The notes below the pieces were generated by a model, which searched no databases, was not told where the DNA came from, and worked only from the letters and a program-made list of their open reading frames with translations. 34,767 nucleotides of DNA, taken from positions 1 to 34,767 of the forward strand of contig JAFPVA010000112.1 of NCBI GenBank assembly GCA_017413105.1, written 5' to 3'. The DNA comes from Butyrivibrio sp. GTDB lineage: Bacteria > Bacillota > Clostridia > Lachnospirales > Lachnospiraceae. The translations under genes were made by a program, and so were the position numbers. Numbering within the stretch: position 1 is the first letter of the stretch; every line of letters begins with the position of its first letter. This document shows positions 2,590 to 34,767 of this stretch, piece by piece.

Positions 2590-2592
2590 TGC

Positions 2593-3240: not shown

Positions 3241-3270
3241 ATCATAAACCGCATAAACACTGAGCTTCAA
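3241..3270 (-). promoter_or_regulatory. Promoter of the sigma-like, xis, int operon
   Basis: On the minus strand TTGAAG (3270-3265) and TATGAT (3246-3241) are separated by 18 bp, a good fit to a vegetative promoter. The start codon at 3186 lies about 50 bp downstream. The spacer contains a copy of the CCGCATAAACACTG motif also found in the attachment region (590-604), so a protein binding that motif could block this promoter. Confidence 0.6.
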
Positions 3271-3290
3271 TGTCATTATTGTGTCGTTTA

Positions 3291-3307
3291 TGTCACACTG
3301 TGTGACA
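3291..3307. promoter_or_regulatory. 17-bp palindrome upstream of the xis-int operon promoter
   Basis: TGTCACAC and GTGTGACA flank a single T. The site is about 20 bp upstream of the -35 element at 3265-3270 and immediately follows the stop codon of the XRE gene. Position and symmetry suggest an operator or activator site. There is no T-run, so it is not a terminator. Confidence 0.5.
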
Positions 3308-3309
3308 CC

Positions 3310-8595: not shown

Positions 8596-9048
8596 TCATT
8601 CCTCATAAGAATCTTTGTCCTCAAACTTGATTTCAAATACTAAATCTTCTATTACCTTTACGCACTCCTCAGTGCTTTTCTTTATATCATTTCCCCAAAA
8701 TCGCACCACATTCCAACCAGCATAAATCAGCTGTTTATTTATCTCATCATCCCGTTCACGATTCCTAGATATTTTACTTATCCAAAAATCACTATTATTG
8801 CTGTTCATAAGCTTTGACTTAAGAACCTGCCAGTCTCTACCATGAAAGAACTCGCCATCACAGAAAATTGCTATTCTGTACTTGGTAAGAACAATATCCG
8901 GATGTCCCGGCAGCTTGTCATAATGTTTTCTATAGCGGTATCCTTTCTTCCATAATGCTTTTCTTAGAATTACCTCTATCTTTGTATCCTTTGACCGGAT
9001 ATTTTGCATATTTTTTCTTCGTTGGTATGGTGTTAAAACATCAGACAT
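8596..9048 (-). CDS. vsr: Very short patch repair endonuclease
   Basis: The 150-residue protein matches Vsr in size and motif order: LTPYQRRKNMQNIRSKDTKIEVILRKALWKKGYRYRKHY, then the catalytic core LPGHPDIVLTKYRIAIFCDGEFFHGRDW (about 47-75) with the metal-binding Asp of PDIV and the conserved FFHG His, then NRERDDEINKQLIYAGWNVVRFW. Vsr nicks next to T:G mismatches made when 5-methylcytosine deaminates. Its presence beside an m5C methyltransferase is the known pairing and supports the methyltransferase call. It lies 20 bp after the HNH gene and 3 bp before the 397-residue ORF. Confidence 0.93.
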   Translation of the reverse strand: MSDVLTPYQRRKNMQNIRSKDTKIEVILRKALWKKGYRYRKHYDKLPGHPDIVLTKYRIAIFCDGEFFHGRDWQVLKSKLMNSNNSDFWISKISRNRERDDEINKQLIYAGWNVVRFWGNDIKKSTEECVKVIEDLVFEIKFEDKDSYEE

Positions 9049-9068
9049 TTCGCTTCACCTTATAAAAA

Positions 9069-10112: not shown

Positions 10113-10129
10113 AATATCTCTCCTAAGAA

Positions 10130-10161
10130 AAAACGACACAGTTTCAGCACTATGTCGTTTT
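10130..10161. terminator. Bidirectional-looking terminator between the two HNH genes
   Basis: AAAACGACA (10130-10138) pairs with TGTCGTTTT (10153-10161). On the minus strand the hairpin is followed by TTCTTAGG, a weak T-run. It splits the methyltransferase-nuclease pair from the second HNH-vsr operon or attenuates read-through. Confidence 0.55.
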
Positions 10162-10170
10162 CAACAAATC

Positions 10171-11160
10171 TTATCCCTTATATACATTTGCTCTATGATA
10201 TTCCAAATACTTGCACCTCTTATCATCAATCTGCAATTTAGGCAAATTCATACCATCATAGATATTAAGTCTATGCTGATTCATTGGTGAAATCCATGGT
10301 GAAACGGTTACTGTCTTGTCATCATTAAACGTAATAAATCCCTGATCAAACAATCTATCATATGTGGGTGTGAGAGCAAATCCATTTTTATAATCAACCT
10401 TCTCTTCATCTGTTGATCTTGCCCATGGTTTTATATGACTGGCTATAAGAAGTCTCTCATCATTAACAAGCGTAAATGGGCAAAACTGGCAATCTTCAAT
10501 AAGCTTTCTTCTATATTCGCCTTGCCCCTGCCTTGCCTCTACAAGGTTTTGCTTTTTCTTCTCAGACATATTGCTTTCTATAATCTTCTTCTCTTCAGCC
10601 TGCGCAAGAGGAGATTCATATTTGACAATATCTGATTTGTAATCAATGAATATTCTGCAATAGTAATATATTTTCCCTGCAGGGCTCTTTACTTTCATAA
10701 TTGAAAGATATGAAATATTAGGAATTCCCACAGACCGCATTAAATCGTAATAATCTGAATCTGACTGCAGATATACTCTTGGCGGATTTACATCTTTACG
10801 ATACACAGAGAAAGACATTATCCGTTTAGCATACTCTGACACTCTTGCTTGAAGATCCGAGTATATCTCAGGCATCTTATCCTTTTTTACATAATCCTGC
10901 TGTGGATTCATATATTCTTCTTTTGCATCAAGTAAATATTTATCGAAATCCTCCTTCAAAAAGAAGAACTCCCTGTCGATATTGTCGAAGAACTCATGAT
11001 ATCTTTCTCCAACGTTACCTACATAAAGCTTTGCTTCTCCATGCCCTGTGCCAGTTTTGTTCTTAACAAAAGAATCTGCCAGCGTAATATTATTAAGTGC
11101 ATCAAGAACCTCATATGTTTCGTTCGCTATTCTAATCTTCTGCGTCTTAGGCTCCGACAT
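10171..11160 (-). CDS. HNH restriction endonuclease
   Basis: The 329-residue protein overlaps the methyltransferase 3' end by 14 bp, the usual arrangement for a cognate restriction enzyme. Its HNH domain lies at about 220-285: C224 and C227, the H242 motif IASHIKPWA, N259 (YKNGFALTPTYDRLFD) and F-D-Q-G-F-I-T-F. The SHIKPW...N..L.P..D.LFD..F pattern is typical of HNH restriction enzymes of type II. The N-terminal 190 residues have no recognised domain and should carry sequence recognition. The cleavage site cannot be predicted. Confidence 0.9.
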   Translation of the reverse strand: MSEPKTQKIRIANETYEVLDALNNITLADSFVKNKTGTGHGEAKLYVGNVGERYHEFFDNIDREFFFLKEDFDKYLLDAKEEYMNPQQDYVKKDKMPEIYSDLQARVSEYAKRIMSFSVYRKDVNPPRVYLQSDSDYYDLMRSVGIPNISYLSIMKVKSPAGKIYYYCRIFIDYKSDIVKYESPLAQAEEKKIIESNMSEKKKQNLVEARQGQGEYRRKLIEDCQFCPFTLVNDERLLIASHIKPWARSTDEEKVDYKNGFALTPTYDRLFDQGFITFNDDKTVTVSPWISPMNQHRLNIYDGMNLPKLQIDDKRCKYLEYHRANVYKG

Positions 11161-12952
11161 TAAGCTTTTCCTTTCCTTCCAGCTGCGGACACACCGACAA
11201 TATCTCTTCCATGATATGAATCAGCACATCTACAACAATAGAATTTCCTGCTTGCTGGTACATTGAAGTATCTGCAACAACAATCTTAAACTCGTCAGAG
11301 AATCCCATTAGTCTTAGACACTCTCTCGGAGTAAGTTTGCGAAGTCTTCCATCAGTTGTTACATAGTTATCGACTCCGGCTCTATGCATTTTATGCATTG
11401 TTGTAAGCAAAGGTCTTGCTATATCAAGATCTGTCTTGGGCTTACTATAGAAATTCTTAGTACCTGAAGAAAGCACATATTTTACAACTTTCTCAGACAA
11501 AAAATACTTCTCAAGCTCCGGAATATTATTCTTAACAGCATCTTCTTCAGACTGGAATACAAAATCGCCATGCCAGTTAAATTGCTGATTTTTCTTTTGG
11601 CAAAGCTGGATGTCTCCATCTATCTGTGTAAATCTTTTCTCTAGATTCTTTTCCTTAGTTACAAATTCAACACCCTTCTTAGGAAGGAAGTACCCTCCAG
11701 GAGCATTATCGAAAAGGAAGTCCTTCATCTTCTTTTCAAGCTTTATTGCCTCAGGAAATTCAAACTCGTGATCCAAATCAAGATCATCCCTGAATCCGAC
11801 AACAAAAAGTCGCTCTCTATTCTGAGGAATACCATAATCTCTCGCATTTAATACTTTCCATGAAAAGTGGTATCCCAGTTCCTTGAACACTTCCTGCATC
11901 TTCTTCCAGGTTTTTCCCTTGTCATGAGACGTAACAGCCCTTACATTCTCATATATAAATACTTTTGGCTTTATCTCATTTATAAGACGAGCATATTCGT
12001 AGAACAGTGTTCCTCTAGTATCATCAAGACCACGCTGCTTACCAACTAGCGAAAACGACTGGCATGGACTTCCACCAACAAACAAGTCTACCTGACCTTC
12101 ATACTGCTTTCCATCTAAAAAAGCTACATTCCAATGAAAATCATCCTCGCTTATTTTGTAATTTGCCATATAGGACTGCTTAACCTTATTTCTAGACTCC
12201 AATCCTTTATATAAAGAGTCTATATAAGCTTTTCTTGCTTTCCAATCATCTCCAAGATCATCAAGATGCCTTTGTACTTTCATATAATTGATTTTCTCAT
12301 ACAACTGGCTTGTTCTCTGAGAAATATCCTGAACTTTGCGAATAATCTTCTTACCGTTAACTTCCTCAAGATAATCATATAAGTCCTTCAGTGATCCGGA
12401 TATTTCTTTCCAATCAATGTTATCCACGGATGTAAAATCTGCAGACTCTCCCAACTCTTCCAGCGAATTATCCTTCTTAAAATCGTTGCTAACCTCAAGG
12501 ATAATCTGCAGTTTTCTAAATTTTCGTTCAATATCACTTCCAGAATCAAATGAATTCTTGAAAGTCACATACTCCTTTATTCTTGATTTCTTCACCTCTT
12601 CCATGGAAATGATTTTATCAAGCAGAGTTATAATGGATGCTTCCTCATTTATATCAACTGACTCTAAAGCATCGACCACTTTTCTATATTCCTTTTGAGC
12701 CTCGCTCAGCATACCCTCCAACTGTTTTTTATACAAATCGTCGTATTCATCAGCGAAGCTAATATCCCTGATGGTAGCCTCAAGTGACTTAAGCTCAGCT
12801 CCTATATCATCAATATTCATCCCTACATCCTTATCGAGGATGTTTACATCTCCATTATCACAGGCGAAAACAATCTCACTATCTATGCCCATTCTATCCA
12901 AAGCATGTTCAATTGCACCAATCCCCGAAAATACTGTAGCTAATCTAATCAT
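11147..12952 (-). CDS. DNA (cytosine-5) methyltransferase with a large insert
   Basis: The 601-residue enzyme methylates cytosine at C5 and protects the host from the adjacent nuclease. Motif I is VFSGIGAIEHALDRMG (7-22), motif IV SPCQSFS (295-301) with catalytic C297, motif VI ENV (335-337), motif VIII QNRERLFVVGFR (377-388), and motifs IX-X RKLTPRECLRLMGF and QAGNSIVVDV near the C terminus. All are intact. Residues 40-265 between motifs I and IV form a long charged helical insert where most family members have about 60 residues, which makes the protein unusually long. The ATG gives MIRLATVFSG, a normal family start. Confidence 0.95.
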   Translation of the reverse strand: MIRLATVFSGIGAIEHALDRMGIDSEIVFACDNGDVNILDKDVGMNIDDIGAELKSLEATIRDISFADEYDDLYKKQLEGMLSEAQKEYRKVVDALESVDINEEASIITLLDKIISMEEVKKSRIKEYVTFKNSFDSGSDIERKFRKLQIILEVSNDFKKDNSLEELGESADFTSVDNIDWKEISGSLKDLYDYLEEVNGKKIIRKVQDISQRTSQLYEKINYMKVQRHLDDLGDDWKARKAYIDSLYKGLESRNKVKQSYMANYKISEDDFHWNVAFLDGKQYEGQVDLFVGGSPCQSFSLVGKQRGLDDTRGTLFYEYARLINEIKPKVFIYENVRAVTSHDKGKTWKKMQEVFKELGYHFSWKVLNARDYGIPQNRERLFVVGFRDDLDLDHEFEFPEAIKLEKKMKDFLFDNAPGGYFLPKKGVEFVTKEKNLEKRFTQIDGDIQLCQKKNQQFNWHGDFVFQSEEDAVKNNIPELEKYFLSEKVVKYVLSSGTKNFYSKPKTDLDIARPLLTTMHKMHRAGVDNYVTTDGRLRKLTPRECLRLMGFSDEFKIVVADTSMYQQAGNSIVVDVLIHIMEEILSVCPQLEGKEKLNVGA

Positions 12953-13156
12953 TACTGCTCACTCCCTAAAACATTCTTCCAAACATTATAACACTTTCAT
13001 GCTATTATTTATTATGCCAGATCATAATAAAACTTACCAGATGTAAAAGGTATTTTTTCACCCTTACGTTCTATTAATGACACAACAATAGTCCCATAAA
13101 AATACCACCTCACAAAATCAGTATCCATGCGGAATTTCCGTTAATCACAGAAACAT

Positions 13157-13196
13157 AAATAGAAAAGAGAATCAGATCAGCTCTCTGATTCTCCTA
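13157..13196 (-). terminator. Terminator of the GIY-YIG gene
   Basis: GAGAATCAGA (13167-13176) pairs exactly with TCTGATTCTC (13184-13193). On the minus strand it is followed by TTTTCTATTT. It isolates the GIY-YIG gene from the methyltransferase. The remaining intergenic bases (12953-13156) hold the methyltransferase promoter region, in which I see no clear box. Confidence 0.8.
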
Positions 13197-13202
13197 TCAC
13201 TT

Positions 13203-14114
13203 TCAATATTGAACTCTCTTTATTATGTATGAAGAAAAATCTACTCCACTTCGCTTGTCTATAAAGCTCCCCGGATCTATCTTTATATCCATCTGGTCCG
13301 TTTTGTCCGCCCTGACTAATAGCCCCGGTTCTGTTTCAGTTGCAAGTTTCAAAGTATAAGCCGGTACTCTCATGATAACAAGTTCCATTTTTGAATTATC
13401 ATTGAGGATTATATCCCAGTCTTTTTCCAATAGGTTGGTTTTGGGGTTTGCCCAAAATGCAGACTTATCATCCGGTAATACTGAATATGTTGCTGTTTTA
13501 TCTATAGCAACACCATTCTCGTTAAGAAATGTTATCGCTTCTGTTTTTGCTCGTTTACCCAAAGCAAGCTTAGTCTTAATGTCAATTGTATTTATAAGTG
13601 AGTTCCCTTTATCAGCTTTTGGATCAGCAAATACAGTAATACCGATAAGTCGCATCAGAAATAGCGCTTCATCAAGATACTGCCCAAGGAACACCTCCCT
13701 GAACTTATCAACCTTTGGATTGTTCCCTTTATTCTTATTATCACAGTCAAGTTTCCCTATATCTTTGGCCTTTTCAATCAAAACTGATTCCAAATAATCA
13801 ATATCAGTATGCGTAAGGCTATCGCTCTGTGTAGTAAGAATGACCACACTTTCCCACCAGTCTTTACCTACTAAATGCTGGTTTATTCTTTTTGCAAGAT
13901 CTGATGACTGGCCAACATAGACCTTATCTTTAGACAGTAACAAATAAACTCCATATTTGTTACATGCATCTGTTTCTAGAAGTTCTGATACAGATTCTCT
14001 TGGTGCAGAATATAATTCTCCTGAATTCCAGCTGGAATCCTCCATGCTTATTACGCCGGATAAATCACCCTCATGCAAAAGTAAATTAATAGTCTTAGCT
14101 TTAGCTGTTGCCAT
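13203..14114 (-). CDS. GIY-YIG nuclease family protein
   Basis: The 303-residue protein has a GIY-YIG domain at about 50-120: YGVYLLLSKDKVYVGQSSDLAKRINQHL carries the GVY and YVG elements, the Arg of AKRINQHL, and a later YLESVLIEKAK with the conserved Glu. The C-terminal half includes ATYSVLPDDKSAFWANPKTNLLEKDWDIILND, which resembles the DUF4357-type tail of such proteins. I chose the ATG at 14114 with AGAGGTGG upstream. GIY-YIG proteins cut DNA, and this one may be a stand-alone nuclease of the defence island. It has its own terminator. Confidence 0.85.
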   Translation of the reverse strand: MATAKAKTINLLLHEGDLSGVISMEDSSWNSGELYSAPRESVSELLETDACNKYGVYLLLSKDKVYVGQSSDLAKRINQHLVGKDWWESVVILTTQSDSLTHTDIDYLESVLIEKAKDIGKLDCDNKNKGNNPKVDKFREVFLGQYLDEALFLMRLIGITVFADPKADKGNSLINTIDIKTKLALGKRAKTEAITFLNENGVAIDKTATYSVLPDDKSAFWANPKTNLLEKDWDIILNDNSKMELVIMRVPAYTLKLATETEPGLLVRADKTDQMDIKIDPGSFIDKRSGVDFSSYIIKRVQY

Positions 14115-14221
14115 TTGACCCACCTCTTTTAACATCCATCATTTTTAAGTATAAGGGCTCCAAATTCTGTGATCAAATACTTTTTCTCTGTCAGCTGTAT
14201 GTCTGATTTAATATGTGAAAA

Positions 14222-14259
14222 TAAAAAAGCAGGGCAGCTACACCAAAATGTAACTGCCC
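14222..14259 (-). terminator. Terminator of the MT-A70 gene
   Basis: GGGCAGCTAC (14232-14241) pairs with GTAACTGCCC (14250-14259) with one mismatch. On the minus strand it is followed by TGCTTTTTTATTTTC. It lies 17 bp after the MT-A70 stop codon. Confidence 0.85.
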
Positions 14260-14275
14260 CTAACATCATTCATTA

Positions 14276-14851
14276 TTAAGCTGCCAACTCTAAATCTTTC
14301 TCCACTTCATTCCCCCAACTATCCCAGCCTGGAGTCTTCTGTCTTGCAAATAATTCCACCCTTGGCACATCCCCCACTAGTTCCACAATCCGGTCACGAG
14401 TCTCTGCTGGCTTTTTACTGTGCTGTTCAATATGACTGATTATCACCTGATGGACTGCTCTGCCGATTCGTTTTGGATGTCCTTTGGTGGCAAGCAGGCA
14501 GATTTCTGCATTGGATCTTGTCCAATAGCCCATGCCCCAGAAAAGAGAATCGCATTTCTTGTTCTGCTTCACCCAGACAAATGCAACCGTTTTGTAATCA
14601 AAGCCCCATGCTTTTATGACATCAAACGCTTCCATGAGGTTTGGGAAGGTTGCCCACATGAAAAGAACACAGTCATCCGCAGCAATATCCGCAACAGGAA
14701 GTCTGCAGATATCCTCCACGCTCATTGTGGGATAATGATTCTCTGCACTCCTTCCCTTGCCCTTGTCTGACCAAACGCCATATCTCCATGGTGGGTCGCA
14801 ATAGATCACGTTGTATTTTTTCTGCTCTCCATTTTTATTTTTGTTTTCCAT
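14276..14851 (-). CDS. MT-A70-family adenine N6 DNA methyltransferase
   Basis: The 191-residue protein has the MT-A70 catalytic motif CDPPWRYG at about 18-25, preceded by YNVIY, then DCVLFMWATFPNLMEAFDVIKAWGFDYKTVAFVWVKQ and AEICLLATKGHPKRI, which fit motifs of the family. These enzymes transfer a methyl group to adenine N6. The ATG at 14851 has AAGGGGG upstream. An alternative GTG at 14938 adds 29 codons and would begin within the dyad-rich region, so I do not favour it. No partner nuclease is adjacent, so it looks like an orphan that may protect ICE DNA after transfer. Confidence 0.93.
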   Translation of the reverse strand: MENKNKNGEQKKYNVIYCDPPWRYGVWSDKGKGRSAENHYPTMSVEDICRLPVADIAADDCVLFMWATFPNLMEAFDVIKAWGFDYKTVAFVWVKQNKKCDSLFWGMGYWTRSNAEICLLATKGHPKRIGRAVHQVIISHIEQHSKKPAETRDRIVELVGDVPRVELFARQKTPGWDSWGNEVEKDLELAA

Positions 14852-14916
14852 TCTTACAAATCCCCCTTCAAAAGATTCACCTACCCCATCTCCAGTACCC
14901 TGGCGTACTAACGCTG

Positions 14917-15013
14917 CAAGTGGTGCAGATGTGGTCACATCTACTCACTTGTTGGGGCACATCCCCAATCCCCTTAGCATCAGATTGCAAATCTGACTAC
15001 GCTCCTACGGAGC
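14917..15013. other. Four consecutive dyads, candidate oriT
   Basis: Four inverted repeats follow one another in 97 bp between the relaxase and the MT-A70 gene: a nested dyad 14917-14951 (outer CAAGTG/CACTTG, inner AGATGTG/CACATCT), 14952-14968 (TTGGGG/CCCCAA), 14980-14996 (TCAGATT/AATCTGA) and 15001-15013 (GCTCC/GGAGC). Loops are 2-5 bases in the inner stems. No T-run follows, so they are not terminators. A strongly structured non-coding site beside relaxase genes is typical of an origin of transfer. The nick site is not identifiable here, and the hairpin at 16504-16536 is a rival. Confidence 0.45.
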
Positions 15014-15082
15014 TAAATGAGAAAATTCGCCAAGATGATGGCATAGATTTGGGCACCGCCTTAGATGACAGTGCCCTGATTG

Positions 15083-16480
15083 TTATCGTGTATGTTCATG
15101 TTCCTTGTTTTCTTTCTGCTGACCATCGATGCCAAGCATCTGGTCGATGTCATACTTTGCAGTCTGATATAACTGCATATCATTCTTTACTTCTTTGTAT
15201 TCTGCATAGGCAGCTTTCTTTTTAGCCAGGACTTCATCATATTCTGCTGAGAGTTCTTTTACCGACGGAAGCTTTCCTTCGTGGTTGTTAAAAGAATCCT
15301 TTGCAGCTTTGTGAGCCATGATGTCTTCCTTATGCTCTGCAAAAAACTTTTTGCTGTAACCGGACTTGCGATAATCAGCATATACATCCCTGGTCCTGGC
15401 ATAAGTGATGATGTTGCTGCGAAGCTCTGAGATTTCCTTAAGCCTTTTCTCATATTTTTTTATGTCAGAACTAAGTTTGCTGAAACGATCCGAAGTGTCT
15501 CCTGCTCTTTTTTCCAGTTCGTTGTAACTACGAAGTCCCTGCTCCTGAAAAAAAAGAATTGCCTTCATGACATTTTTTACATTGAACTTCTTAGCCCACA
15601 ATTCATAGCCTGGACCTTTTCCTTTTGCAATGATGTCCTGAAGATTAAGGAGAAGGTCGAAGCTGTCATCCCTGTAAAATGGCTTGCTGTCTTTTTTCAT
15701 GTCAGCGCCTTTGGCAACACCCTCTATCTTTTTTACCAGCTCGTCCTGAGTGTAACCTTTTCCCAGAGATCTGAACCGGATGAAGCGCTGCTGACCATTC
15801 CCTCTGACAGAAATATGTTTGCCACGCTTTATCTCGTACCCTGAAGAAGCTAACTCTTTCAAAAAGTCATCAAAAGTCTTTGGTTTTTTTGAAAGAGCGA
15901 TGTCGATTGCCTCACGAAGTTTATCACGAAAGCTCGGCCCATTATCTTCATGGATGTAAGTTGTCTTACTGTGATAAGGAGCCGGAGCTATAACGGAATA
16001 ACCATTTTCCATGCAGATTATGTTGGAAAGTTTTCCAAGAGCAATACCAGAGCCCCAGAAGTTTCTGAATTTCTTTTGGCAGTCTAGTGTTGTGGAATTA
16101 AAGATCACATGATTATGGATGTGTTTCTTATCGGTATGAGTCGCAACGATGAAAGCATGATTACCTTTTGTAAATCTCATGGCAGTCTCATATCCGATTC
16201 TGTTTGCTTCCTTCGGTGTAATTTCTCCAGGCTTAAAAGACTGCCTAATCTGATATGCTATTACATTGTCAGTTCTTTTTCGCCCGGTCATCTGCTCATA
16301 ATCCCTTTTTGAAACTGCGAACTCTTCATCCACTGTCTTAGGATCACAGGCATACGAAGTTACATAAGTACCATTCTCTGTTTTGTCCGGGTTCATTGCA
16401 TAATCAGTTCTCTCACCAATGCACTTGTTCAGAGTCCTGCCCTTATTCTGATGTAATGCAATAAGTCTTGTTGCCGCCAT
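15083..16480 (-). CDS. Relaxase/mobilization nuclease, MOBP-like
   Basis: The 465-residue protein begins ATRLIALHQNKGRTLNKCIGERTDYAMNPDKT and carries the histidine triad in a metal-binding motif at 115-124 (HTDKKHIHNH), followed by VIFNSTT; Y27 is a candidate nicking tyrosine. This is the relaxase pattern of PF03432 proteins, which nick oriT, stay covalently attached and lead the DNA into the recipient. Residues 330-440 look like coiled coil. MobC lies just upstream, the usual pairing. The length is in the family range. The stop codon is followed by a gap that leads into the four-dyad region. Confidence 0.93.
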   Translation of the reverse strand: MAATRLIALHQNKGRTLNKCIGERTDYAMNPDKTENGTYVTSYACDPKTVDEEFAVSKRDYEQMTGRKRTDNVIAYQIRQSFKPGEITPKEANRIGYETAMRFTKGNHAFIVATHTDKKHIHNHVIFNSTTLDCQKKFRNFWGSGIALGKLSNIICMENGYSVIAPAPYHSKTTYIHEDNGPSFRDKLREAIDIALSKKPKTFDDFLKELASSGYEIKRGKHISVRGNGQQRFIRFRSLGKGYTQDELVKKIEGVAKGADMKKDSKPFYRDDSFDLLLNLQDIIAKGKGPGYELWAKKFNVKNVMKAILFFQEQGLRSYNELEKRAGDTSDRFSKLSSDIKKYEKRLKEISELRSNIITYARTRDVYADYRKSGYSKKFFAEHKEDIMAHKAAKDSFNNHEGKLPSVKELSAEYDEVLAKKKAAYAEYKEVKNDMQLYQTAKYDIDQMLGIDGQQKENKEHEHTR

Positions 16481-26814: not shown

Positions 26815-27027
26815 TCAGAAAAGACCTGAAAGAAGAGGAATGAGTGTTGTTCCGATTAAGGCAACACCACCTCCCGCCATCAGCTGCTTCATTCCCTGGC
26901 TCTTTGCGCCTGGGTTGTCATTGCCATAACCTTCAAGAAGGTTGATGATTCCCCATACTCCAAGGCCTGCGCCAAGGGCGATTACTACTGTCTGTAATGT
27001 TCCTACTGCTGAGTTAAAAAATGCCAT
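26815..27027 (-). CDS. Maff2-family small membrane protein
   Basis: The 70-residue protein reads MAFFNSAVGTLQTVVIALGAGLGVWGIINLLEGYGNDNPGAKSQGMKQLMAGGGVALIGTTLIPLLSGLF, the full Maff2 family length with two hydrophobic helices; it resembles a VirB2-like pilin in layout. I start at 27027 by homology although there is no ribosome binding site upstream of this ATG. The frame stays open to 27306, which would add 93 residues derived from the transposon end; this extension is probably artefactual. Translation may instead be coupled to a small upstream ORF. Confidence 0.85.
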   Translation of the reverse strand: MAFFNSAVGTLQTVVIALGAGLGVWGIINLLEGYGNDNPGAKSQGMKQLMAGGGVALIGTTLIPLLSGLF

Positions 27028-27143
27028 AATGTTTTTGGGAACCGGATTTTTGTTTTGTTCATTTTTTTGTTCATTTCTTGTGATTGCCAGAGGAACTGGA
27101 AAGCAAATCCCATTGTTTTTTTGTTTATTTTGGGACCCATCAC
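27003..27143 (-). CDS. Possible leader ORF coupled to maff2
   Basis: A 46-codon frame starts at GTG 27143 with AAGGAGGA 9 bases upstream, the best ribosome binding site in this region. It ends at 27003, 25 bases inside maff2, in another frame. Such overlap could let ribosomes reinitiate at the maff2 ATG, which lacks its own site. The peptide has no recognised domain. Confidence 0.3.
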   Translation of the reverse strand: MMGPKINKKTMGFAFQFLWQSQEMNKKMNKTKIRFPKTLWHFLTQQ

Positions 27144-27300
27144 CGGTTCCATCCTCCTTCTTAATTTGTGTACGCTTTCCACTTCTGGACAGATCACATT
27201 CGCAATATTCAGTTGTCTTCCCCAAAGCCCGTCGACTGACTTTGAGATATGCGCGCATAAAAATACCGCCCTGTTTTTTCAGTGCGGCTATATAGTAAAA
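27028..27300. other. Transposon left-end region, no recognised gene
   Basis: This 273-bp stretch between maff2 and the terminator holds two ATGAACAAAA copies (on the minus strand at 27062 and 27074 downward), a 12-bp perfect palindrome TATGCGCGCATA (27248-27259), and a hairpin at about 27267-27287 that is followed by TATTTTTA on the minus strand. I see no clear promoter for the downstream conjugation genes. Confidence 0.5.
27044..27074 (-). repeat. Left terminal inverted repeat of the transposon
   Basis: On the minus strand two ATGAACAAAA copies (first base at 27074 and 27062) precede AAATCC at 27049-27044. The sequence matches the right end in inverted orientation over 15 bp. Probably a binding site for the tyrosine recombinases. 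Confidence 0.6.
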
Positions 27301-27357: not shown

Positions 27358-29100
27358 TCAGATAAGACGCCGTCTTTGCGGTGTCTTTCCATCACAGAAA
27401 GGGCACCCTTGCCCTACTGACCTTTGATTTGGCGAAGCCCTCCAGCTATGTCCGTTACTACACTTCCACCAAACCTCCCTGTTGGAACTCGGAAAAACAT
27501 CTTCCGGTCCTAAATCCCCATTAAGCTGATAATCCCATTCTTTTGCCATTTCGGGATTATTCTCTTTCAAGTCGTTATAGCCGGAATATACTACATGCTT
27601 GTTCTTTTTTCGATTACAATATGGACACCCCGTACCCTTTGTTCTATCACTTACAGATGTTTTCCAGCTATGGCCATACTTGCATTTCCACCAGACTTTC
27701 AGACGGCTGCCCTTTAAAAGATTTGAAGACTCAATTCTCTTGTTCCTTTCCCAGTCCCACTCTTCCATAAGCTCAGGATAGAGCGTCTTTATATCATTTA
27801 CCCCTGTTTCCGCTTTAGTACCTGCGCAATATGGGCAACCAGTATTTCCGTTTGTCCGACTTGCCAGCCTGACATGCCATTCATGTCCTTTATTGCACTT
27901 AAACCATATATATTTCTTGCTACTTGGACTGATACTATCCGGAGAGGTCCCATTGTTTCTGTCCTCATGCCATTCGGCAGCAATATCAGGGTATGTAGTC
28001 GCAAGGTCATTAAAACCTTTCAACACTTTCTTACCGCTACAATATGGACAGCCCGTCCCATAAAATCTGTTAGCAACAGTTGCCTGCCAGCCATGTCCGA
28101 GACTGCATCTCCACCACGCTTTATATTTCGACGCAAATGAAGTATTCACTGGCGTTTTATCCCCATTCTTCTCATAATCCCACTCCTGCGCCATGTAAGG
28201 TGCGGCATGAAACAGATCATTTTCACCTTCGATCACACGTTTACCATTGCAATACGGACAGCCTCCGCCCCTCGTCCTTACCGATACTGGTGCTTCCCAC
28301 TCGTGCCCACTATGGCAGATCCACCAGTATTTTTTGCTAGTCCCTGAAGTGATCATATCCGGTTTTTCATTATTATTCTTTTCATAATTCCATGAAGCTG
28401 CAATTTCCGGATATTTCGTGGCAAGATCATTAAATCCTTTCAAAACCTTTTGCCCTGCGCAATACGGGCAGCCTGCGCCGGCCTTTCTTGCGTAGATATA
28501 TGCCTGCCAGTTATGACCGCACCGGCCATTCCACCACACCTTCTTTTCAGTTCCTGCCATAACCATCTGAGGTGTCAAAGGATAGTTTTTCTCCCGGTCC
28601 CACTCATCCGCAAGAAAAGGATATGTCGTTGCAAGATCATTAAACCCTACAAGTATCTTCTGGCCTGCACAGTATGGGCACCCCCTCCCATCATGATTTC
28701 TTCTCGATACAGTATCCATCCAACTATGGCCATTAGAATCAATCCAATATACTTTTCTGTTACTTCCGGCAGTCACCATATCAGGTTTTAAGTTACCATT
28801 CCTTTCAAAATCCCATTCTTTAGCAAGCTCTTTATTTGCGCTGGCAAGATCGTTGAACCCCTTCAAAACCTTTTGCCCTGCACAATATGGACATCCATTT
28901 CCATTCGTATTCCGGCTTCCCACTGAAGCTCTCCAACTATGGGCATGTTCAGTACAGATCCACCAAACCTTTTTATCACTGCAGCCGGCAACATCGTATG
29001 GGGTGAGTGGACTGTTTTTTTCATAATCCCACTCCTGAGATACTTTAGGATTAACTACCGCAAGTGAATTTTTATCACGTATCAGTTTATTCGATCCCAT
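27358..29100 (-). CDS. Protein of eight 70-residue zinc-finger repeats
   Basis: The 580-residue protein consists almost entirely of eight tandem units. The CPYC (last one CPFC) motifs begin at residues 70, 141, 211, 281, 351, 422, 492 and 566, so the period is 70-71 residues, then 74. A unit reads: NDL, then EWDYEKN, then KVWWKC..GHSW.A.V..R..G.GCPYC. The C...GH plus CPYC set gives the ligands of a treble-clef zinc finger (PF14311/DUF4379-like). Unit 2 lacks the first Cys (YWIDSNGHSW) and unit 3 has it displaced (WWNGRCGHNW). In known relatives the repeats are often fused to Vsr/DUF559-type nuclease domains; none is present here. The gene overlaps the TnpC-like gene by 14 bp, so it is made with the recombinases. 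Role unknown; DNA binding is likely. Confidence 0.85.
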   Translation of the reverse strand: MGSNKLIRDKNSLAVVNPKVSQEWDYEKNSPLTPYDVAGCSDKKVWWICTEHAHSWRASVGSRNTNGNGCPYCAGQKVLKGFNDLASANKELAKEWDFERNGNLKPDMVTAGSNRKVYWIDSNGHSWMDTVSRRNHDGRGCPYCAGQKILVGFNDLATTYPFLADEWDREKNYPLTPQMVMAGTEKKVWWNGRCGHNWQAYIYARKAGAGCPYCAGQKVLKGFNDLATKYPEIAASWNYEKNNNEKPDMITSGTSKKYWWICHSGHEWEAPVSVRTRGGGCPYCNGKRVIEGENDLFHAAPYMAQEWDYEKNGDKTPVNTSFASKYKAWWRCSLGHGWQATVANRFYGTGCPYCSGKKVLKGFNDLATTYPDIAAEWHEDRNNGTSPDSISPSSKKYIWFKCNKGHEWHVRLASRTNGNTGCPYCAGTKAETGVNDIKTLYPELMEEWDWERNKRIESSNLLKGSRLKVWWKCKYGHSWKTSVSDRTKGTGCPYCNRKKNKHVVYSGYNDLKENNPEMAKEWDYQLNGDLGPEDVFPSSNREVWWKCSNGHSWRASPNQRSVGQGCPFCDGKTPQRRRLI

Positions 29101-29821
29101 CTTTCACCTGCTCCTCCATAGCTCTAAAAAGGCGATCCTGCTTTGATTCCTGCTCCTGAACTGTTCCCCTGATCCCCTTGAACGCCTCCGGAAACTTAGC
29201 TTCTATAAGCTCATCAAAAGCATCGGCACACACCGTATTGTTCTCAGAAACTGGTATTTTTTCCTGCTTTAAGAGTTCATTTGCAACAGACGGGTACAGA
29301 TACTTCTTGAGCATCTTCCTCATATATCTGCAAGCAAGCGTAAGGTGTCGGTTCTCTCTTTCAAGCTCTCTGATCCTTGTCTCAAGACGATTATTGGCAT
29401 CTCTGGCCTCCTGAAGTTCATTTGGATCTGCCTTATGCGATCTCAGCCTTTCATTTTCCTTTTCCGTATTCACTGAAGCCTCATATACAGATTTCCAATA
29501 TTCATCCAGCTCTCGTATACAGGTCTTGAATTCACTGATGTTCCTGCTCTTAATAAGCAGCGCATCAATGTCCAGAGTCCGATATGCCTTTGATGTTACA
29601 CCGCTATCGCCACCTGCTTTTTTCTTCATGTCTTCAATAAAATCATTGACAGCCTTATCCCTCCTGAAGTCATAAGCCTTGGCATCACTCCCGTGTTTTT
29701 CTGCGTACCTGGCAAAGTTGGAACACTTCAGCCTGGCAATGTTTCCTTCGCCCTCTGTTTCAAAGTATTCCCTTGCAAAATTCACCAACATTTCCGAGCT
29801 ATTCTTTTTATTTCTACCCAT
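29087..29821 (-). CDS. TnpC-like transposition accessory protein (DUF6262 type)
   Basis: The 244-residue protein resembles Tn554 TnpC: a small basic N-terminal domain (GRNKKNSSEMLVNFAREYFETEGEGNIARLKCSNFARYAEKHG, the DUF6262 pattern) followed by a long coiled coil (about 115-175, KENERLRSHKADPNELQEARDANNRLETRIRELERENRHL). Tn554 TnpC (125 residues) influences transposition frequency and orientation; this one is twice as long. I chose the ATG at 29821, with GGAGGAAAT upstream, over the GTG at 29827. It overlaps both neighbouring genes. Confidence 0.8.
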   Translation of the reverse strand: MGRNKKNSSEMLVNFAREYFETEGEGNIARLKCSNFARYAEKHGSDAKAYDFRRDKAVNDFIEDMKKKAGGDSGVTSKAYRTLDIDALLIKSRNISEFKTCIRELDEYWKSVYEASVNTEKENERLRSHKADPNELQEARDANNRLETRIRELERENRHLTLACRYMRKMLKKYLYPSVANELLKQEKIPVSENNTVCADAFDELIEAKFPEAFKGIRGTVQEQESKQDRLFRAMEEQVKDGIE

Positions 29822-29823
29822 TG

Positions 29824-31371
29824 TCACATTTCCTCCATGTACTGTCTGAACAAAACACCTGCATAATCATTACCGGCCTTACACAGCCTTGCCATTGCCG
29901 CTTGTATGCTTTCGGTCTGTCCGTTGCCCTTTCTTACAGCCTCGATCATCTGCATCAGGAATTCTCCCGACATATCTACAGCTTCCTTCCGTTCATTACG
30001 GATACTCAATCTCAAGCCCTGCCTGTCCGGATAAAAATGCCTGCAGTCATGACATTCGCCAAGGCGCATCTGACCCTGAAAGTTTTTAACGCACTCTGAT
30101 ATATCTCCCCTCTCAACCGGAAGATAGTCACAATACCCATCAGACAGGCGTACCTTATGTTCCGGAAGCGTTATCGGAAAAAACAATTTTCCATCCAGCA
30201 CAGCTCTCTGATCACCGGAATGACAGTATTCATAGACCGTACTTTCAACGATGGTCGAAAGATTGGAATAATAATTTGAGCTTATGTCTATATCCTCATG
30301 TCCCGCCAACTCCCTGCAGATCACAGGCGATCCACCTGAAAGCATCAGATTTATCATTGCAAGATGCCTTGTATCGCCAAGATTAACAGCTGTCTCATCC
30401 ATCATGAGCTCCTGTCTCAGGAACTTGTGTAAGCGATAATTCATCTGCTGGTAAGACAGATACCATGTCTGTGCGTCTTTCCCCGGAATGAGAAGCGTTA
30501 TGTTCTCGTCCCTTCTGATCTTCCTGGTTCTTTTTACATACAACTGTATCTCCTTGTACAGTTCTTCCGGTATTCCGTATTCGCAGATTTCATAATCATC
30601 GTTTACCTTATAGCGCTTCTTTTCATGGTTCTTCTTATTCCTCGTTCTCCTGACCTTAATAAAATATCCATCGCTTTCACTCCGAATACATTTCTTCGGG
30701 ATGAGGAGGAATTCTGTGGGCCGGAGCGGCAGAATTGAAGTAAGCTTCCACCAGAAGAATACCGGAAAATAATATACTTTCTTCTGTTCATCCGCCGATC
30801 TCCAAAAATCAGCAAGCCTCGCATCAAACCTAAGATAATTACTGAATTCCTCAAGTTTTCTGCTCTTACTCTTTTTCCATATCTGGCTGTTTTTATCATC
30901 ATCGAGCGATTCTAATACCCTATCCCTGCTTTCAGAATCCCCCGGAAGAGCACCGAGGAATTCCAACACATGGGATCCGTTCCTTCCATAGGACACCTCG
31001 TCAGGATCCATATATGCAATATCAAGAATATCCTTACATACAGTGCATAAATGTCCCAAGACCACTTCCCCCAGTCTCATAACAATGAATGTCTTCATAC
31101 AAAGCTTGAATTTGGCTGCATTCAGGCCGCTCCACTTTCCAGCTTTTGCAGAATATTTTCTTCCATCGATCACAAAGCGAAAACGGTAATCCTTCAGCTC
31201 GTTATTAAGCACCCACTCATCATCTTCAAAACTGCCTTTAACAACTACACTTTCTGACCTATAACGTTCAAAATCATCTCTGGCATTCCTTATCGCTTTA
31301 TTGTCTATCGTGTATAAGGTCAGGTATCTTGAATAGCTGTCATTTACCTCCTCATTCATTAGCGGCCGCAT
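29824..31371 (-). CDS. Tyrosine recombinase, TnpB-like (second copy)
   Basis: The 515-residue protein carries R217 (LPLRPTEFLLIP), R335 (GDTRHLAMINLMLSGG), H358 (ELAGHED) and Y367 or Y368 (DISSNYYSN), the order of a tyrosine recombinase active site. The His of the usual HxxR box is replaced by Asp. The C terminus has a Cys cluster (C414, C427, C440, C443: CHDCRHFYPD) of the kind found in Tn554 TnpB. It overlaps the TnpB-like gene by 20 bp and TnpC by a few bases. Its partners are the other two recombinases. Confidence 0.85.
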   Translation of the reverse strand: MRPLMNEEVNDSYSRYLTLYTIDNKAIRNARDDFERYRSESVVVKGSFEDDEWVLNNELKDYRFRFVIDGRKYSAKAGKWSGLNAAKFKLCMKTFIVMRLGEVVLGHLCTVCKDILDIAYMDPDEVSYGRNGSHVLEFLGALPGDSESRDRVLESLDDDKNSQIWKKSKSRKLEEFSNYLRFDARLADFWRSADEQKKVYYFPVFFWWKLTSILPLRPTEFLLIPKKCIRSESDGYFIKVRRTRNKKNHEKKRYKVNDDYEICEYGIPEELYKEIQLYVKRTRKIRRDENITLLIPGKDAQTWYLSYQQMNYRLHKFLRQELMMDETAVNLGDTRHLAMINLMLSGGSPVICRELAGHEDIDISSNYYSNLSTIVESTVYEYCHSGDQRAVLDGKLFFPITLPEHKVRLSDGYCDYLPVERGDISECVKNFQGQMRLGECHDCRHFYPDRQGLRLSIRNERKEAVDMSGEFLMQMIEAVRKGNGQTESIQAAMARLCKAGNDYAGVLFRQYMEEM

Positions 31372-33238
31372 AATCGATCCCCCTTTCCATTATTTCAAGC
31401 ATAGATTCCATTTCCGCCTTCGGATAAAGCATCTCCAAACTTGCAAATATCTGTGATACTGCCGGAAGTATTCCTTCCGACATGATCTTTGAAAGCCTTG
31501 TCCGTTCCATTCCTTCCGACATTCCCCTTTTCTTCGATAAGAAAACATACTCCTGCATGAGGACATGAAATGCTGTTTTTGTATATATTTCATAACCACA
31601 TCCCATACAGCAGCCCCTATCAGAGTGACAACAGGATAATCCTGCCGCGAAACGCAGACAAAGCATTTCCTCTTGCTTTGCCGGTATTTCATCTGCACAT
31701 AGATTCTGAAGTATCCTGTGGACTGACTCCTTGGAATTGTCCACTAAAGACAGGATTTCTCCAACAGCTTTTTCCGCTTTATCCATTGATCTGTCAATAC
31801 TGCTCACAATGCCTTCTAACTGCACGGGACTGAGTCCGATCATCTTTATGATCCTTGTCTGATCAGATACTCCAAGCTTTCTATACTCATCATGACAGTA
31901 TTCATTAAGGAGCAATGCCGGTATGAATCCGAATACTCCCCTTTCAAACATCTCTCTTAAAATAAAGTCAGGCTTGTAACCGGTGAAGGATGCGTCACAC
32001 AGATATATTTCAGTAATATCCGCAAGCTCTCCTATACCGCCCTTATGGCTTCTCGCTAACGCTGCAAGCATATATCCTTTTGCACTTCCGGGCTCTACTT
32101 CTGTTGTTGCTTCTATTCCCTGAAGATATGCTTTATTGGCACGCCTTGTCATGAACCTCCGCTTCCCGGCAATCTCTGCGAAATCATCCCCGAAGAATGC
32201 TTTAATATGATTTTTCTCCGCTGAAGGGGTTATGCAGTTATCGCCCTTTTCATGATGCAAAAGTGCAAGTGCGAGCATAATCCCTATAGGTTCCTTCAAA
32301 CTCTCGGGGACAAAGAACTTTACATCAGGGATCATCGAATATCTCTCTGTTTTGTTGGGCTGTCCCATCGTCATCCCCGAAAGATAAACCCAATGTTCCG
32401 CAAAGCTAATGGCTGCTCTCCCCTTAAAGTCACCATCGGAGATCTTTCCAGCCAGCAGTGCCCTATCACAAGGCAGCTCCGGTGCCGGAAGTCTTACCAT
32501 GTCCGTACTTCTCAACCCGCAGACAAAATGCAGCGATATATACAGCCACATATCTGCATACTTCCTTTCAGCCAGAGCCTTTGCTATCAGCCCCCGGTCA
32601 TCCCATGCTTTTTCATTAAAAAGGACATATGCCATAAACGAAAAATCGCGCAGCGGATATGCGGTATTATCCCTCTCGACAAGTCTTCTGCTATGCATCT
32701 CGTATTTCCAATCAATTCTCAGCTTTCCCTTTCCCCTGAGACTTCTCATGAAATCGATCATCGTATCACAGTTAGATATGGCAAGATAATCCGAAGCATT
32801 TGCAATAATCATCTGGACCTCTTCCTCCGTATAATCCGTCAGCTCCCTGTCTATTTCCGACAGAAGATAATCAAGTATGCGGAGACCGCCCTCGCTCCCA
32901 TAATTTCCGGATTCCTTGAAATACTTCTTGAACGATACGCATGTAATAGGATAACTGTCAGAAAAGTAATTGATCAGGATATCCATTTTTTCTGCATTTG
33001 TCCTTTTGTATGCCATCAGCCAGAGGTTAAGCCTTTCCGATATTTCCGCACTGTTCAGGATATATAAATCATCCCCTGTTCCCATAAGTTTTTGTCCAAA
33101 CCAGCCATTAGCAATAAAAAAGTTCAAGAGATCATCCTTACATTTCCGCGTATCCTTGTAGAGGGATCCTATAGAGCCAGCTATGATCTCAGCTTCTTTA
33201 TAGATATAGAATCTTTCATTTTTCATAGACCTGCTCAC
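31352..33238 (-). CDS. TnpB-like recombinase, divergent active site
   Basis: At 628 residues it has the same size as Tn554 TnpB (630). An arginine in CGLRSTDMVRL (R243), basic residues in RRFMTRRANKAY (360-371), H398 and Y412 (ARSHKGGIGELADITEIYL) follow the order of tyrosine recombinase motifs. The HxxR box is not recognisable, so catalytic activity is uncertain. A C-terminal Cys cluster (CCHSDRGCCMGCGY, 536-547) probably binds zinc. It overlaps both neighbours by 20-23 bp. The identification rests on size, position and motif order. Confidence 0.75.
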   Translation of the reverse strand: MSRSMKNERFYIYKEAEIIAGSIGSLYKDTRKCKDDLLNFFIANGWFGQKLMGTGDDLYILNSAEISERLNLWLMAYKRTNAEKMDILINYFSDSYPITCVSFKKYFKESGNYGSEGGLRILDYLLSEIDRELTDYTEEEVQMIIANASDYLAISNCDTMIDFMRSLRGKGKLRIDWKYEMHSRRLVERDNTAYPLRDFSFMAYVLFNEKAWDDRGLIAKALAERKYADMWLYISLHFVCGLRSTDMVRLPAPELPCDRALLAGKISDGDFKGRAAISFAEHWVYLSGMTMGQPNKTERYSMIPDVKFFVPESLKEPIGIMLALALLHHEKGDNCITPSAEKNHIKAFFGDDFAEIAGKRRFMTRRANKAYLQGIEATTEVEPGSAKGYMLAALARSHKGGIGELADITEIYLCDASFTGYKPDFILREMFERGVFGFIPALLLNEYCHDEYRKLGVSDQTRIIKMIGLSPVQLEGIVSSIDRSMDKAEKAVGEILSLVDNSKESVHRILQNLCADEIPAKQEEMLCLRFAAGLSCCHSDRGCCMGCGYEIYTKTAFHVLMQEYVFLSKKRGMSEGMERTRLSKIMSEGILPAVSQIFASLEMLYPKAEMESMLEIMERGIDYAAANE

Positions 33239-34538
33239 CCACTTTCATAAGGAGACTGGCAAGTCTCTCATCAGCTTCCTTCAGTTCATTTACAAGATCC
33301 CCCTTATTCTGAAGGTACTCAAATGCGCTCTGCGGATTCCTGTCTCCTCTCCAGAACTGGATTCCACCTATATCCTCTTGATTGATTACCAGCTGCACGG
33401 TAAACCAGTGTCTTAATGAATGTGGTGTCAGCTGATGCTCGCATAAAAGCTGCCCATAAATCCTCATCTCCGGATCATCGCTTTCCAGTAACGTCGGTCT
33501 TAAGTGATTATTTACAAGGCTTTCAAATTTCTTCCTGTAACTGTCATACGACATCGCCATACCGTCCTCATTTATAAACATAGGACGATATTTTTCCTCG
33601 CATGGTCTGTTTGCAAGCCGTTTCATATGGAAGTCATATCCTACATAAAATGCATCAAGAAATCTCTGATAAACATGCTGTGTCCTCGGTTTTTTAATCC
33701 TGCCAACCTTAATCCCATCACTCCTGAGCGTATACACATGCCTGAGGTCGATTGATACATTCTTTACCCTACCGGCAATGGAAGTGATAATAAGGCCCTG
33801 TCCCAGAGGGCTTGATACCTGTCTTACATTCATTGCCTCACCTGCACGAAGCCCTGCAAAAGCCTGGAGACACATCGCAAACGCAATATCAGGCGCATAT
33901 ATGAAAGCCATGGGTAACAAAAGCTCAAATGCCTTTGTCGGGAGGTCCCTGAATGTATCCCTATGCTCATCTATTCCCTTTATATGAAAGTCAGGGATAC
34001 TTTTTAAAACTTTCTTTCCCCTGTCAGTTACAACTACCTGCTCCCTGTATAGCATCTGCCCCGTAAGTACAACATAGTTGCCAAACCTCTTTCTCAGAGC
34101 GTACATAAATCCTGTTACTGCACTAATACACCGTTCTACTGTATCCTTGCTACGATGGCTTCCATCGTCCTTGGGGGATAAAGCATAATCCTCAAAGAAA
34201 TCTGTCAGCATGTCCTTTGTAATATCAAAAACATGTTTGATGTTGTATGCCTCACCCATCTCTACAAGAACATAATTCAGCATCATACATATGTATGACA
34301 GTTTCTTCTTCGGATCTGCGCTTATCGGGAGAAAAGTTCTTCTGTCGTAAACCCCGGCGTACTCATGAAATCTTGTAAACTTCACGATTACATCAAATCC
34401 ATTCTTGATCACTATAAAAGACCTGGTATATGCGATCCCATCCGGGGTTTGTGCCTCATACGAGTACACAGCATATCTCATCTGCCTTTCTTCGGGTGGT
34501 CCTCCTCTCTGATACTCCTCCATTTTTACAATGTTCAT
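33216..34538 (-). CDS. Tyrosine recombinase, TnpA-like
   Basis: The 440-residue protein has the active-site set R231 (GLRAGEAMN), H373 and R376 (TPHSLRHW), and Y408 (SAFEYLQ). The second His of the family (usually GH) is W396-R397 (QFWRGDR), a common substitution in this branch. It is the first gene of the transposon operon, as tnpA is in Tn554. I chose the ATG at 34538 with TAGGAGGAATC upstream; the frame is open to 34625. It presumably cuts the element ends at the repeats 70-170 bp upstream. Confidence 0.88.
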   Translation of the reverse strand: MNIVKMEEYQRGGPPEERQMRYAVYSYEAQTPDGIAYTRSFIVIKNGFDVIVKFTRFHEYAGVYDRRTFLPISADPKKKLSYICMMLNYVLVEMGEAYNIKHVFDITKDMLTDFFEDYALSPKDDGSHRSKDTVERCISAVTGFMYALRKRFGNYVVLTGQMLYREQVVVTDRGKKVLKSIPDFHIKGIDEHRDTFRDLPTKAFELLLPMAFIYAPDIAFAMCLQAFAGLRAGEAMNVRQVSSPLGQGLIITSIAGRVKNVSIDLRHVYTLRSDGIKVGRIKKPRTQHVYQRFLDAFYVGYDFHMKRLANRPCEEKYRPMFINEDGMAMSYDSYRKKFESLVNNHLRPTLLESDDPEMRIYGQLLCEHQLTPHSLRHWFTVQLVINQEDIGGIQFWRGDRNPQSAFEYLQNKGDLVNELKEADERLASLLMKVGEQVYEK

Positions 34539-34603
34539 TTTGATTCCTCCTAATCCTATGATGTCGTCTTTACAGCAAGACGCATGGACTATCTTAACCA
34601 AAA

Positions 34604-34710
34604 ATGAACAAAATAAAATAGACAAAACCCAGGAGGTTTCACCTATCAGATCTATCAGATATTTATTGTTTATTGTTCATACCCTAAAAATGAACAAAAC
34701 GAATAAATCC
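34604..34710 (+). repeat. Right terminal repeats of the transposon
   Basis: ATGAACAAAAT at 34604-34614 and ATGAACAAAAC at 34690-34700 are direct copies, with a reverse copy TTGTTCAT at 34673-34680. AAATCC at 34705-34710 closes the end. The sites lie upstream of tnpA, so a bound recombinase could also repress its own operon. Confidence 0.6.
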
Positions 34711-34767
34711 AGTATTTTCAACGGTTTGTGGGGATGATTATTTTGTTTATTTCATTCCGGTGCCAAA
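34711..34767. other. ICE sequence outside the transposon right end
   Basis: The minus strand begins with six codons and a stop (FGTGMK then TAA at 34751-34749), which could be the end of the gene upstream of maff2, expected to be virD4 in Tn1549-like ICEs. Six codons are too few to identify it. The remaining bases to 34711 look non-coding. Confidence 0.3.

Follow-up and report, generated by a model that had tools for sequence, protein, structure and literature searches.

Gene E, which closes a block of five overlapping genes in a contig of Butyrivibrio sp., encodes an array of zinc-finger units that is real and part of a conserved family of mobile elements. We tentatively propose, at slightly less than an even chance, that E serves as the subunit recognizing the target in a site-specific tyrosine-recombinase element related in type to SE, GInt and Tn554. 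According to this proposal, the products of genes A and C (with B and D) would cut and join the element ends, and E, made from the same operon, would bind nucleic acid through its row of treble-clef units and bring the recombinase complex to the 5' end of a chosen gene, here between the ribosome-binding site and the start codon of Maff2.

The element and its recombinase genes

The window, i.e. the whole stretch of DNA analysed here, is one complete contig of 34,767 nucleotides. Its genes match parts of conjugative elements (a relaxase, a CD1107-like protein, a TraG-type ATPase, TrbL/VirB6 and Maff2), and the A-E block lies at its right side (Table 1), within an element inserted just before the Maff2 start codon of the conjugative element. 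The five genes are all encoded on the minus strand in the order A-B-C-D-E, and each overlaps the next one (A/B by 23 bp, B/C by 20 bp, C/D by 4 bp and D/E by 14 bp, positions 29087-29100). A preliminary description of this DNA spoke of a five-gene recombinase operon, with the last gene overlapping a TnpC-like gene by 14 bp and hence made together with the recombinases. The overlap is confirmed, the overlapping gene block supports a co-expression layout, and the word operon holds for the genes as a block; of the five products, however, only those of A and C retain the Arg, His/Arg and Tyr columns typical of tyrosine recombinases.

Table 1. Features of the element and of its target gene in the window
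Feature	Position	Strand	Description and basis
Target gene Maff2	26815..27027	-	intact, 70 aa; PF12750 (E-value 5e-40), translation
Hairpin 3' arm CCGGTTCC	27038..27045	-	probably marks the right terminus of the element; 10 nt upstream of the Maff2 ATG; folding
Hairpin 5' arm GGAACCGG	27143..27150	-	would bridge the ribosome-binding site and the Maff2 start; folding
Element-borne ribosome-binding site AAGGAGG	27153..27159	-	sequence
Copy of Maff2 leader segment (ATGCGCGCATATCT..AGTCGACGGG)	27190..27265	-	inside the right end of the element; read by eye
Gene E	27358..29100	-	580 aa; eight DUF4379 treble-clef units and a short basic tail (PQRRRLI)
Gene D	29087..29827	-	246 aa, in TnpC/Srap/GinD position; position and conservation
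Gene C	29824..31371	-	large tyrosine recombinase (IntB-like), 515 aa; conserved residues
Gene B	31352..33238	-	628 aa; probably a degenerate recombinase (Tfp-like), with a CxxC conserved close to the C-terminus
Gene A	33216..34625	-	tyrosine recombinase (IntA/GinA/TnpA-like), 469 aa; conserved residues
Left terminal motif GGCACCGGAATG	34753..34764	-	resembles the left end of L014, GGAACCGGAAAG

Gene A gave weak, sub-cut-off matches to PF00589 and to XerA/XerC (Pfam, NCBIfam), and in the alignment of 10 homologues R260, H402, R405, H406 and Y437 are invariant. Gene C likewise has a weak, sub-cut-off match to PF00589 (Pfam), with R217, K246, R335, H336, H358, Y367, Y368, C427, C440 and C443 invariant among 10 homologues. 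From what is known of the tyrosine recombinase family, we take the conserved motif residues of A and C to be catalytic. Gene B is probably a degenerate recombinase: an Arg and an RSHKG block are kept in its 10-member alignment, and no conserved catalytic Tyr was seen among these members. Pfam reported for the 10 members a best E-value of 0.05 (two families, one member each), and the predicted structure of B is poor (pLDDT 63), with Cre/XerH in the top Foldseek rows at non-significant E-values of 0.3-1.4. For gene D, searches of Pfam and NCBIfam found no family match of weight and no TnpC-type family.

Relatives of the element are designated here by locus numbers (L011 etc.), and the element of the window by W. 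The 3' arm CCGGTTCC is the last segment common to the window and L011 before the two sequences diverge; on the other side, the contig stops 3 bases past the left terminal motif. Segments resembling the Maff2 leader were seen by eye in the left flanking DNA of L015, beyond the element, and partly upstream of Maff2 in L073.

The zinc-finger array

Gene E matches PF14311 (DUF4379, "Probable Treble clef zinc finger domain") in eight stretches, with a whole-protein E-value of 5.1e-149 and a score of 485 bits (curated cut-off: 24.5), and its CP[YF]C knuckles are spaced by 70-74 residues. The complete C..H..C..C zinc set is present in six of the eight units; the first Cys is replaced by D121 in unit 2 and by G192 in unit 3. 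Besides DUF4379, Pfam reported only sub-cut-off zinc-type matches, NCBIfam gave only sub-cut-off matches (several of them to glutaredoxin-type models over the CPYC motif) and PADLOC gave none, with no catalytic family above the cut-off in any of the three. The PHROGs matches, located on the repeats, are to families named HNH endonuclease or endonuclease. E has a pI of 9.0 and a net charge of about +20. Its AlphaFold2 model (11 sequences; mean pLDDT 87, pTM 0.43) exhibits strands and short helices in every unit; the individual units are predicted confidently and their overall arrangement is uncertain. The eight repeats of about 70 residues lacking a detected catalytic domain, as reported in the preliminary description, are thereby confirmed. 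The zinc ligands that it assigned to the units hold for six of them but not fully for units 2 and 3, and the term treble-clef is the label given by Pfam, the model giving strands and short helices in each unit.

Distribution of the array among related elements

Every element counted below was found with C or A as a query; the copies in the window's own genome were found first with E and again with C. The genome samples, which overlap and were searched with different thresholds, yielded 9 of 299 genomes of the family (E-value <= 0.001), 8 of 392 of the order and 1 of 391 of the class (the window's own genome), and further samples yielded 5 of 79 genomes of the genus, 8 of 397 of the family, four named loci and two viral contigs. 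All C proteins were ranked with one profile and divided at 470 bits. In each of the 20 distinct elements above this line (W, L011-L016, L031-L036, L060-L063, L134, L138 and L165) a DUF4379 array directly follows D; the divergent arrays of L033-L036 and L063 were confirmed with Pfam. Loci on the same contigs (L012 = L137, L013 = L136, L035 = L167) and the identical L134 and L135 were counted once each. Three of the 20 are incomplete (A is cut in L011, E is cut by the contig in L012, A is not covered in L035). L017 (3954-4351), a further fragment with two DUF4379 units that lies at a contig end in the same genome as the window, was left out. The arrays comprise 5 units in L032, 6 in L016, L060 and L061, 8 in W, L011, L013, L014, L015 and L035, 9 in L031, L062, L063 and L138, 11 in L165, 13 in L036 and 16 in L033; in L034 only 2 units were detected, and for L134 the counts were 8 or 9.

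Among the more distant loci (<470 bits) the array directly follows D in two of nine: L166 (269 bits) has a D-like ORF and then an array, and L065 (237 bits) has two array ORFs after D. The latter (11502-14146, 7 and 5 units) may be one broken gene. No array was found next to the fourth gene in L064 (302 bits), L066, L067, L068 and L039, and since these five distant loci have none, such recombinases can work without an array. By the C profile the array-less L064 outranks L166. In L038 an array protein with further domains is encoded two genes on, and the sequence of L037 ends after C. L067, a distant four-gene plasmid element, contains a mercury-resistance set by annotation (11451-14390).

A reverse search detected DUF4379 units (E-value <= 1e-10) in 22 of 150 family genomes, at 24 places outside the window's own genome. 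Of these, G043 and G106 correspond to counted elements, and 20 of the other 22 were examined (all but two in G025): none of these 20 arrays adjoins A-D, with only 327 bases covered upstream of L145. The reverse search misses divergent arrays, e.g. that of L036. With E as a tblastn query, 93 plasmid and 84 phage records were matched, and eight plasmid neighborhoods of DUF4379 arrays contain no A-D-like operon by annotation, one of them having a single tyrosine recombinase gene nearby. As judged by these searches, the DUF4379 domain is general, but gene E belongs to this element lineage. The fixed association of the array with recombinases is borne out by the closest 20 elements. Homologues without recombinase genes, which the preliminary description named among the observations that would speak against its proposal, prevail in the domain family (0/20 arrays), but not for the gene E of this lineage.

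The proteins of W and L011 are identical in 93% (A, over the 296 aa present in L011), 82% (B), 84% (C), 85% (D) and 82% (E) of positions, and in 66 pairs the identity of E correlates with the mean identity of A-D (0.95). The divergence of E keeps step with that of B, C and D, which suggests that the protein is a resident component of the element. We consider it unlikely that E is passing cargo or an artefact, the operon slot being constant in the closest 20/20 elements. By eye, the genes found after E in L134/L135 and L062 resemble a toxin-antitoxin pair and a histidine phosphatase gene; in L060 the recombinase block is followed by a 1447-aa protein (8870-13213) with weak, sub-cut-off TPR/STAND-type matches.

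Insertion sites and the leader of Maff2

The right end could be placed in 12 insertions. In nine of them (W, L011, L014, L015, L016, L032, L061, L062 and L135) it is followed after about 7-11 nt by the start codon (ATG) of Maff2 or of a Maff2-like gene, the target of L016 being called Maff2-like from 25 residues only. In the other three, it is found where a Toprim (topB-like) gene begins (L060), close to the beginning of a phage tape-measure gene (L031) and against another such element (L013). The left flanks of L015, L016, L032, L061, L062, L134 and L138 have one upstream gene in common, not always adjacent, encoding a relative of the T4SS coupling protein (PF02534 on part of the L062 gene). 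Since this gene is common to the left flanks of Maff2-inserted elements, L134 and L138 are probably located at the same (Maff2) site. L134 and L135 are identical over their whole overlap and are most simply explained as two copies in one genome; because both contigs break exactly at the element ends, the termini are fixed at CGTAACCAACTC and GTTTTTGGTTTC. In the same genome the right end of L013/L136 abuts the left end of L135, i.e. two different elements follow each other in tandem, their termini about 6 bp apart (by eye). L031 is an IMG/VR contig, and its element near the tape-measure gene indicates that the family also enters phages.

Insertion of the element parts the ribosome-binding site from the Maff2 start. 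All nine Maff2 insertions exhibit the same leader geometry: an element-borne site of the AAGGA type, 0-2 nt, a stem, the arm at the terminus, 8-11 nt and the ATG, with a predicted hairpin of about 100-150 nt that ends at the element terminus (region 27027-27159, minus strand, in the window). The pairing of the arms is stronger than in 500 arm shuffles (p 0.004 for L011 and 0.000 for the other eight); where several ribosome-binding sites were available one was picked by hand, and in L062 and L135 the site is drawn partly paired. Folding of the whole segment is not unusual in W and L011. The sequence of the arms varies between element groups and the geometry is constant. The geometry found in 9/9 insertions, together with the element's own site in the right end, suggests that the insertion may be tolerated because the hairpin would bring the element-borne site next to the Maff2 start.

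Order of the units and the insertion target

We compared the variable columns of the units, aligned from the C-terminus, with those in shuffled unit order for pairs among 10 arrays. For pairs of Maff2-inserted elements with C identity <0.46, the mean z is 2.04 with p<0.05 in 14 of 22 pairs (1.42 and 9 of 22 if the last unit is fixed), versus a mean z of -0.22 and 0 of 17 for pairs with different targets; with gaps allowed, the respective values are 1.72 (10 of 22) and 0.38 (1 of 17). All six same-target pairs with C identity >=0.46 have p<0.05. The pairs lack independence, and since the two elements with other targets come from a single lineage, the contrast amounts to little more than one independent event. 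The same-target term is the largest of all 36 choices of two odd elements out of nine. The identity of the whole E protein shows no target effect (residual 0.005 cross-target vs -0.002 same-target).

The left ends were compared in nine elements (L016 was omitted, its left end not being placed), and their similarity has no explanatory power for the collinearity pattern. In L014, L015 and L134 the left ends resemble one another little or no more than shuffled sequences do; these elements have the same target and z of 3.0-4.1. The sisters L031 and L060 (C 49% identical, similar left ends, different targets; 9 vs 6 units) have z of -0.5 to -0.1. The array of the window is weakly collinear, with a mean z of 1.0 over seven Maff2 pairs and p<0.05 in two of them (without gaps, z 0.5 with L014, -0.2 with L061 and -0.9 with L032; with gaps, -0.4, 1.1 and 1.9, respectively). 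According to these alignments, unit order tracks the insertion target better than it tracks recombinase divergence or element ends, and we take this association as moderate evidence for an involvement of E with the target. Of the roles offered in the preliminary description, the choice of target sites is thus favored over the binding of element ends.

A simple repeat-programmed code, as suggested in the same description, is not supported: arrays of 5, 6, 8 and 9 units all reach the Maff2 site, which argues against a simple unit-per-base relation. The most code-like columns (5, 42, 51 and 66, with 0 changes in 25 orthologous units of three close pairs) are not jointly conserved among the more distant Maff2 elements, where the values for matched vs mismatched units are 0.09 v 0.15 (column 42) and 0.41 v 0.37 (column 51), with a moderate gain for columns 5 (0.31 v 0.13) and 66 (0.23 v 0.14). 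Columns 4, 45, 68 and 73 follow the register better and leave room for a looser code. The best register-following columns among the Maff2 elements are 4-5, 44-50 and 68-73, which the model places in the loop that precedes the first hairpin strand and at the start of the helix; they are candidate contact positions.

Possible ligands and function of E

E is basic in all eight elements tested (pI 8.5-9.4). From its basic character and from the occurrence of the same units in phage endonuclease families of PHROGs we infer that it binds nucleic acid. These families, together with a nuclease-type match of the free-standing array L139 (MTES_1575, 20.1 bits, below the cut-off of 38.2), lean towards DNA. 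The only relatives with solved structures are mitoribosomal and lean towards RNA-protein complexes: mt-SAF33 was matched by sequence, and by fold the eight structural matches with E-values <= 0.001 are all mitoribosome or assembly entries (seven of the eight named trypanosomatid).

If E is the target-recognition subunit, its ligand would be the target DNA and it would presumably contact the recombinases. Its closest working analogue may be TnsF of Tsy/Tn6022, described in the portion of the source covered here as a target selector with N-terminal zinc fingers (PMC10293859). We further speculate, with less confidence, that a separate, rearrangeable array steers this recombinase family: upon the move to a new target the units would be reordered, gained or lost, at the same target their order would be kept even between recombinases only ~40% alike, and the hairpin with its ribosome-binding site would spare the target gene. 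Such an array would represent a naturally occurring modular protein for the targeting of site-specific recombinases.

Alternatively, E may bind the ends of its own element or the circular intermediate, as an architectural or directionality factor in synapsis rather than in the choice of target. Its place in the operon after the TnpC/Srap-like gene and its fixed association with the recombinases fit this possibility, and columns 5, 42, 51 and 66 are unchanged in the 25 units of pairs with ends alike as far as read (the left ends of L013-L015 and L062-L138, the right ends of W-L011). However, left ends are similar (scores of 0.39-0.46, against a shuffled mean of 0.23) in L015-L031, L015-L060, L031-L060 and W-L014, and yet z is -0.9 to 0.5 in these pairs, whereas values of 3-4 are attained where the target is shared but the ends are dissimilar; L032-L061 and L062-L134, with similar ends, the same target and collinear units, are also the closest pairs. 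We regard end binding as unlikely. A role in RNA binding, e.g. on the hairpin leader in front of the target gene or on the element's own mRNA, would agree with the mitoribosomal character of all eight structural matches and with the similar hairpin possible between the ribosome-binding site and the start codon in 9/9 Maff2 insertions, but the stem sequence varies between element groups and DUF4379 units are also found in phage proteins named endonuclease, which leaves it somewhat less probable still.

The existence of four-gene relatives without the array, and of 20 other DUF4379 arrays apart from such recombinases, would be expected if E were a passenger with an accessory function (anti-restriction, competition with other elements, regulation) dispensable for transposition; the closest 20/20 elements nevertheless keep the E slot, whereas the genes after E vary, and we find this explanation improbable. 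Least probable, in our opinion, is a protein-protein scaffold for A, B, C and D, in which contacts with the recombinases would keep the order of units: the correlation between the divergence of E and that of A-D agrees with it, but L031 and L060, despite the 49% identity of their C proteins, have arrays of 9 and 6 units with no collinearity, and the order of units is conserved in many same-target pairs that are more distant. Target recognition remains our preferred, if tentative, interpretation: unit order that tracks the target better than the ends favors an E that chooses target sites over one that binds element ends.

Comparison with known systems

SE elements (IntA-Tfp-IntB-Srap) are described, in the part of the source covered here, as strand-biased circularizing integrative elements (PMC10214605), and some GInt elements (ginABCD) are reported to insert site-specifically at gene ends (PMC5385486). 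Both kinds have three recombinase-related genes, one of them lacking the catalytic motif, followed by a small fourth gene, and insert site-specifically (PMC10214605, PMC5385486). The element of the window agrees with them in gene order and overlaps, in the catalytic columns kept by A and C and in site-specific insertion; B, with its non-significant fold matches, is a probable recombinase relative. The element differs by the additional zinc-finger array gene, which does not appear in the covered parts of the SE and GInt accounts, the word "zinc" being absent from the GInt main text (PMC10214605, PMC5385486). In SE a 6-bp core is carried between sites; here about 6 bp were seen by eye between the termini of L013 and L134/L135. 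Tn554 (TnpA-TnpB-TnpC), as described in the covered literature, is similar in its two recombinases and small third product and in bringing donor sequence to the right junction, but it has no counterpart of Tfp, i.e. of the extra gene B between the two catalytic recombinases; moreover, D matches no TnpC-type family, and no array is mentioned for Tn554 there. As far as these accounts go, the layout of the window is closer to the four-gene SE/GInt elements than to Tn554, because B is without a conserved catalytic Tyr.

As in the TnsF/TnsD systems and in Tsy (yrec, hth, GIY-YIG, tnsF), where according to the covered part of the source a dedicated protein selects a conserved gene site and TnsF has zinc fingers (PMC10293859), E would be a dedicated selector; unlike TnsF, which combines zinc fingers with a recombinase domain (PMC10293859), E is separate and consists of repeats only, with DUF4379 as the sole Pfam match above the cut-off. 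The PF14311 arrays found elsewhere, in phage, plasmid and chromosomal zinc-ribbon proteins, are built from the same unit but are not accompanied by A-D. As in modular readers of the TALE type, the units of E stand in tandem and combine conserved scaffold columns with variable ones, but no unit-to-base relation was found and the length of the array varies at a constant target. In the literature searched DUF4379 is hardly mentioned and PF14311 is not mentioned.

How elements of the SE, GInt and Tn554 type find their sites is not settled in the literature covered. If E is a selector, it would represent a modular nucleic-acid recognition system attached to a DNA-joining recombinase, and the arrays with known insertion sites would form a natural data set for the relation between units and sequence. 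Even if it is not, a fifth gene fixed in an element lineage offers a clear experimental handle.

Other insertions in Maff2

Two types of mobile element apparently target Maff2. L032 contains pieces of group II introns (926-3570 and 12808-15513; Rfam RF02004, RF00029), located in Maff2 near codon 43 and in the region of the upstream coupling-protein gene. L014 and L061 also break near Maff2 codon 43, with no Rfam match. Among the Maff2 match rows many end at residues 43-52, and five cover only residues 39/40-70.
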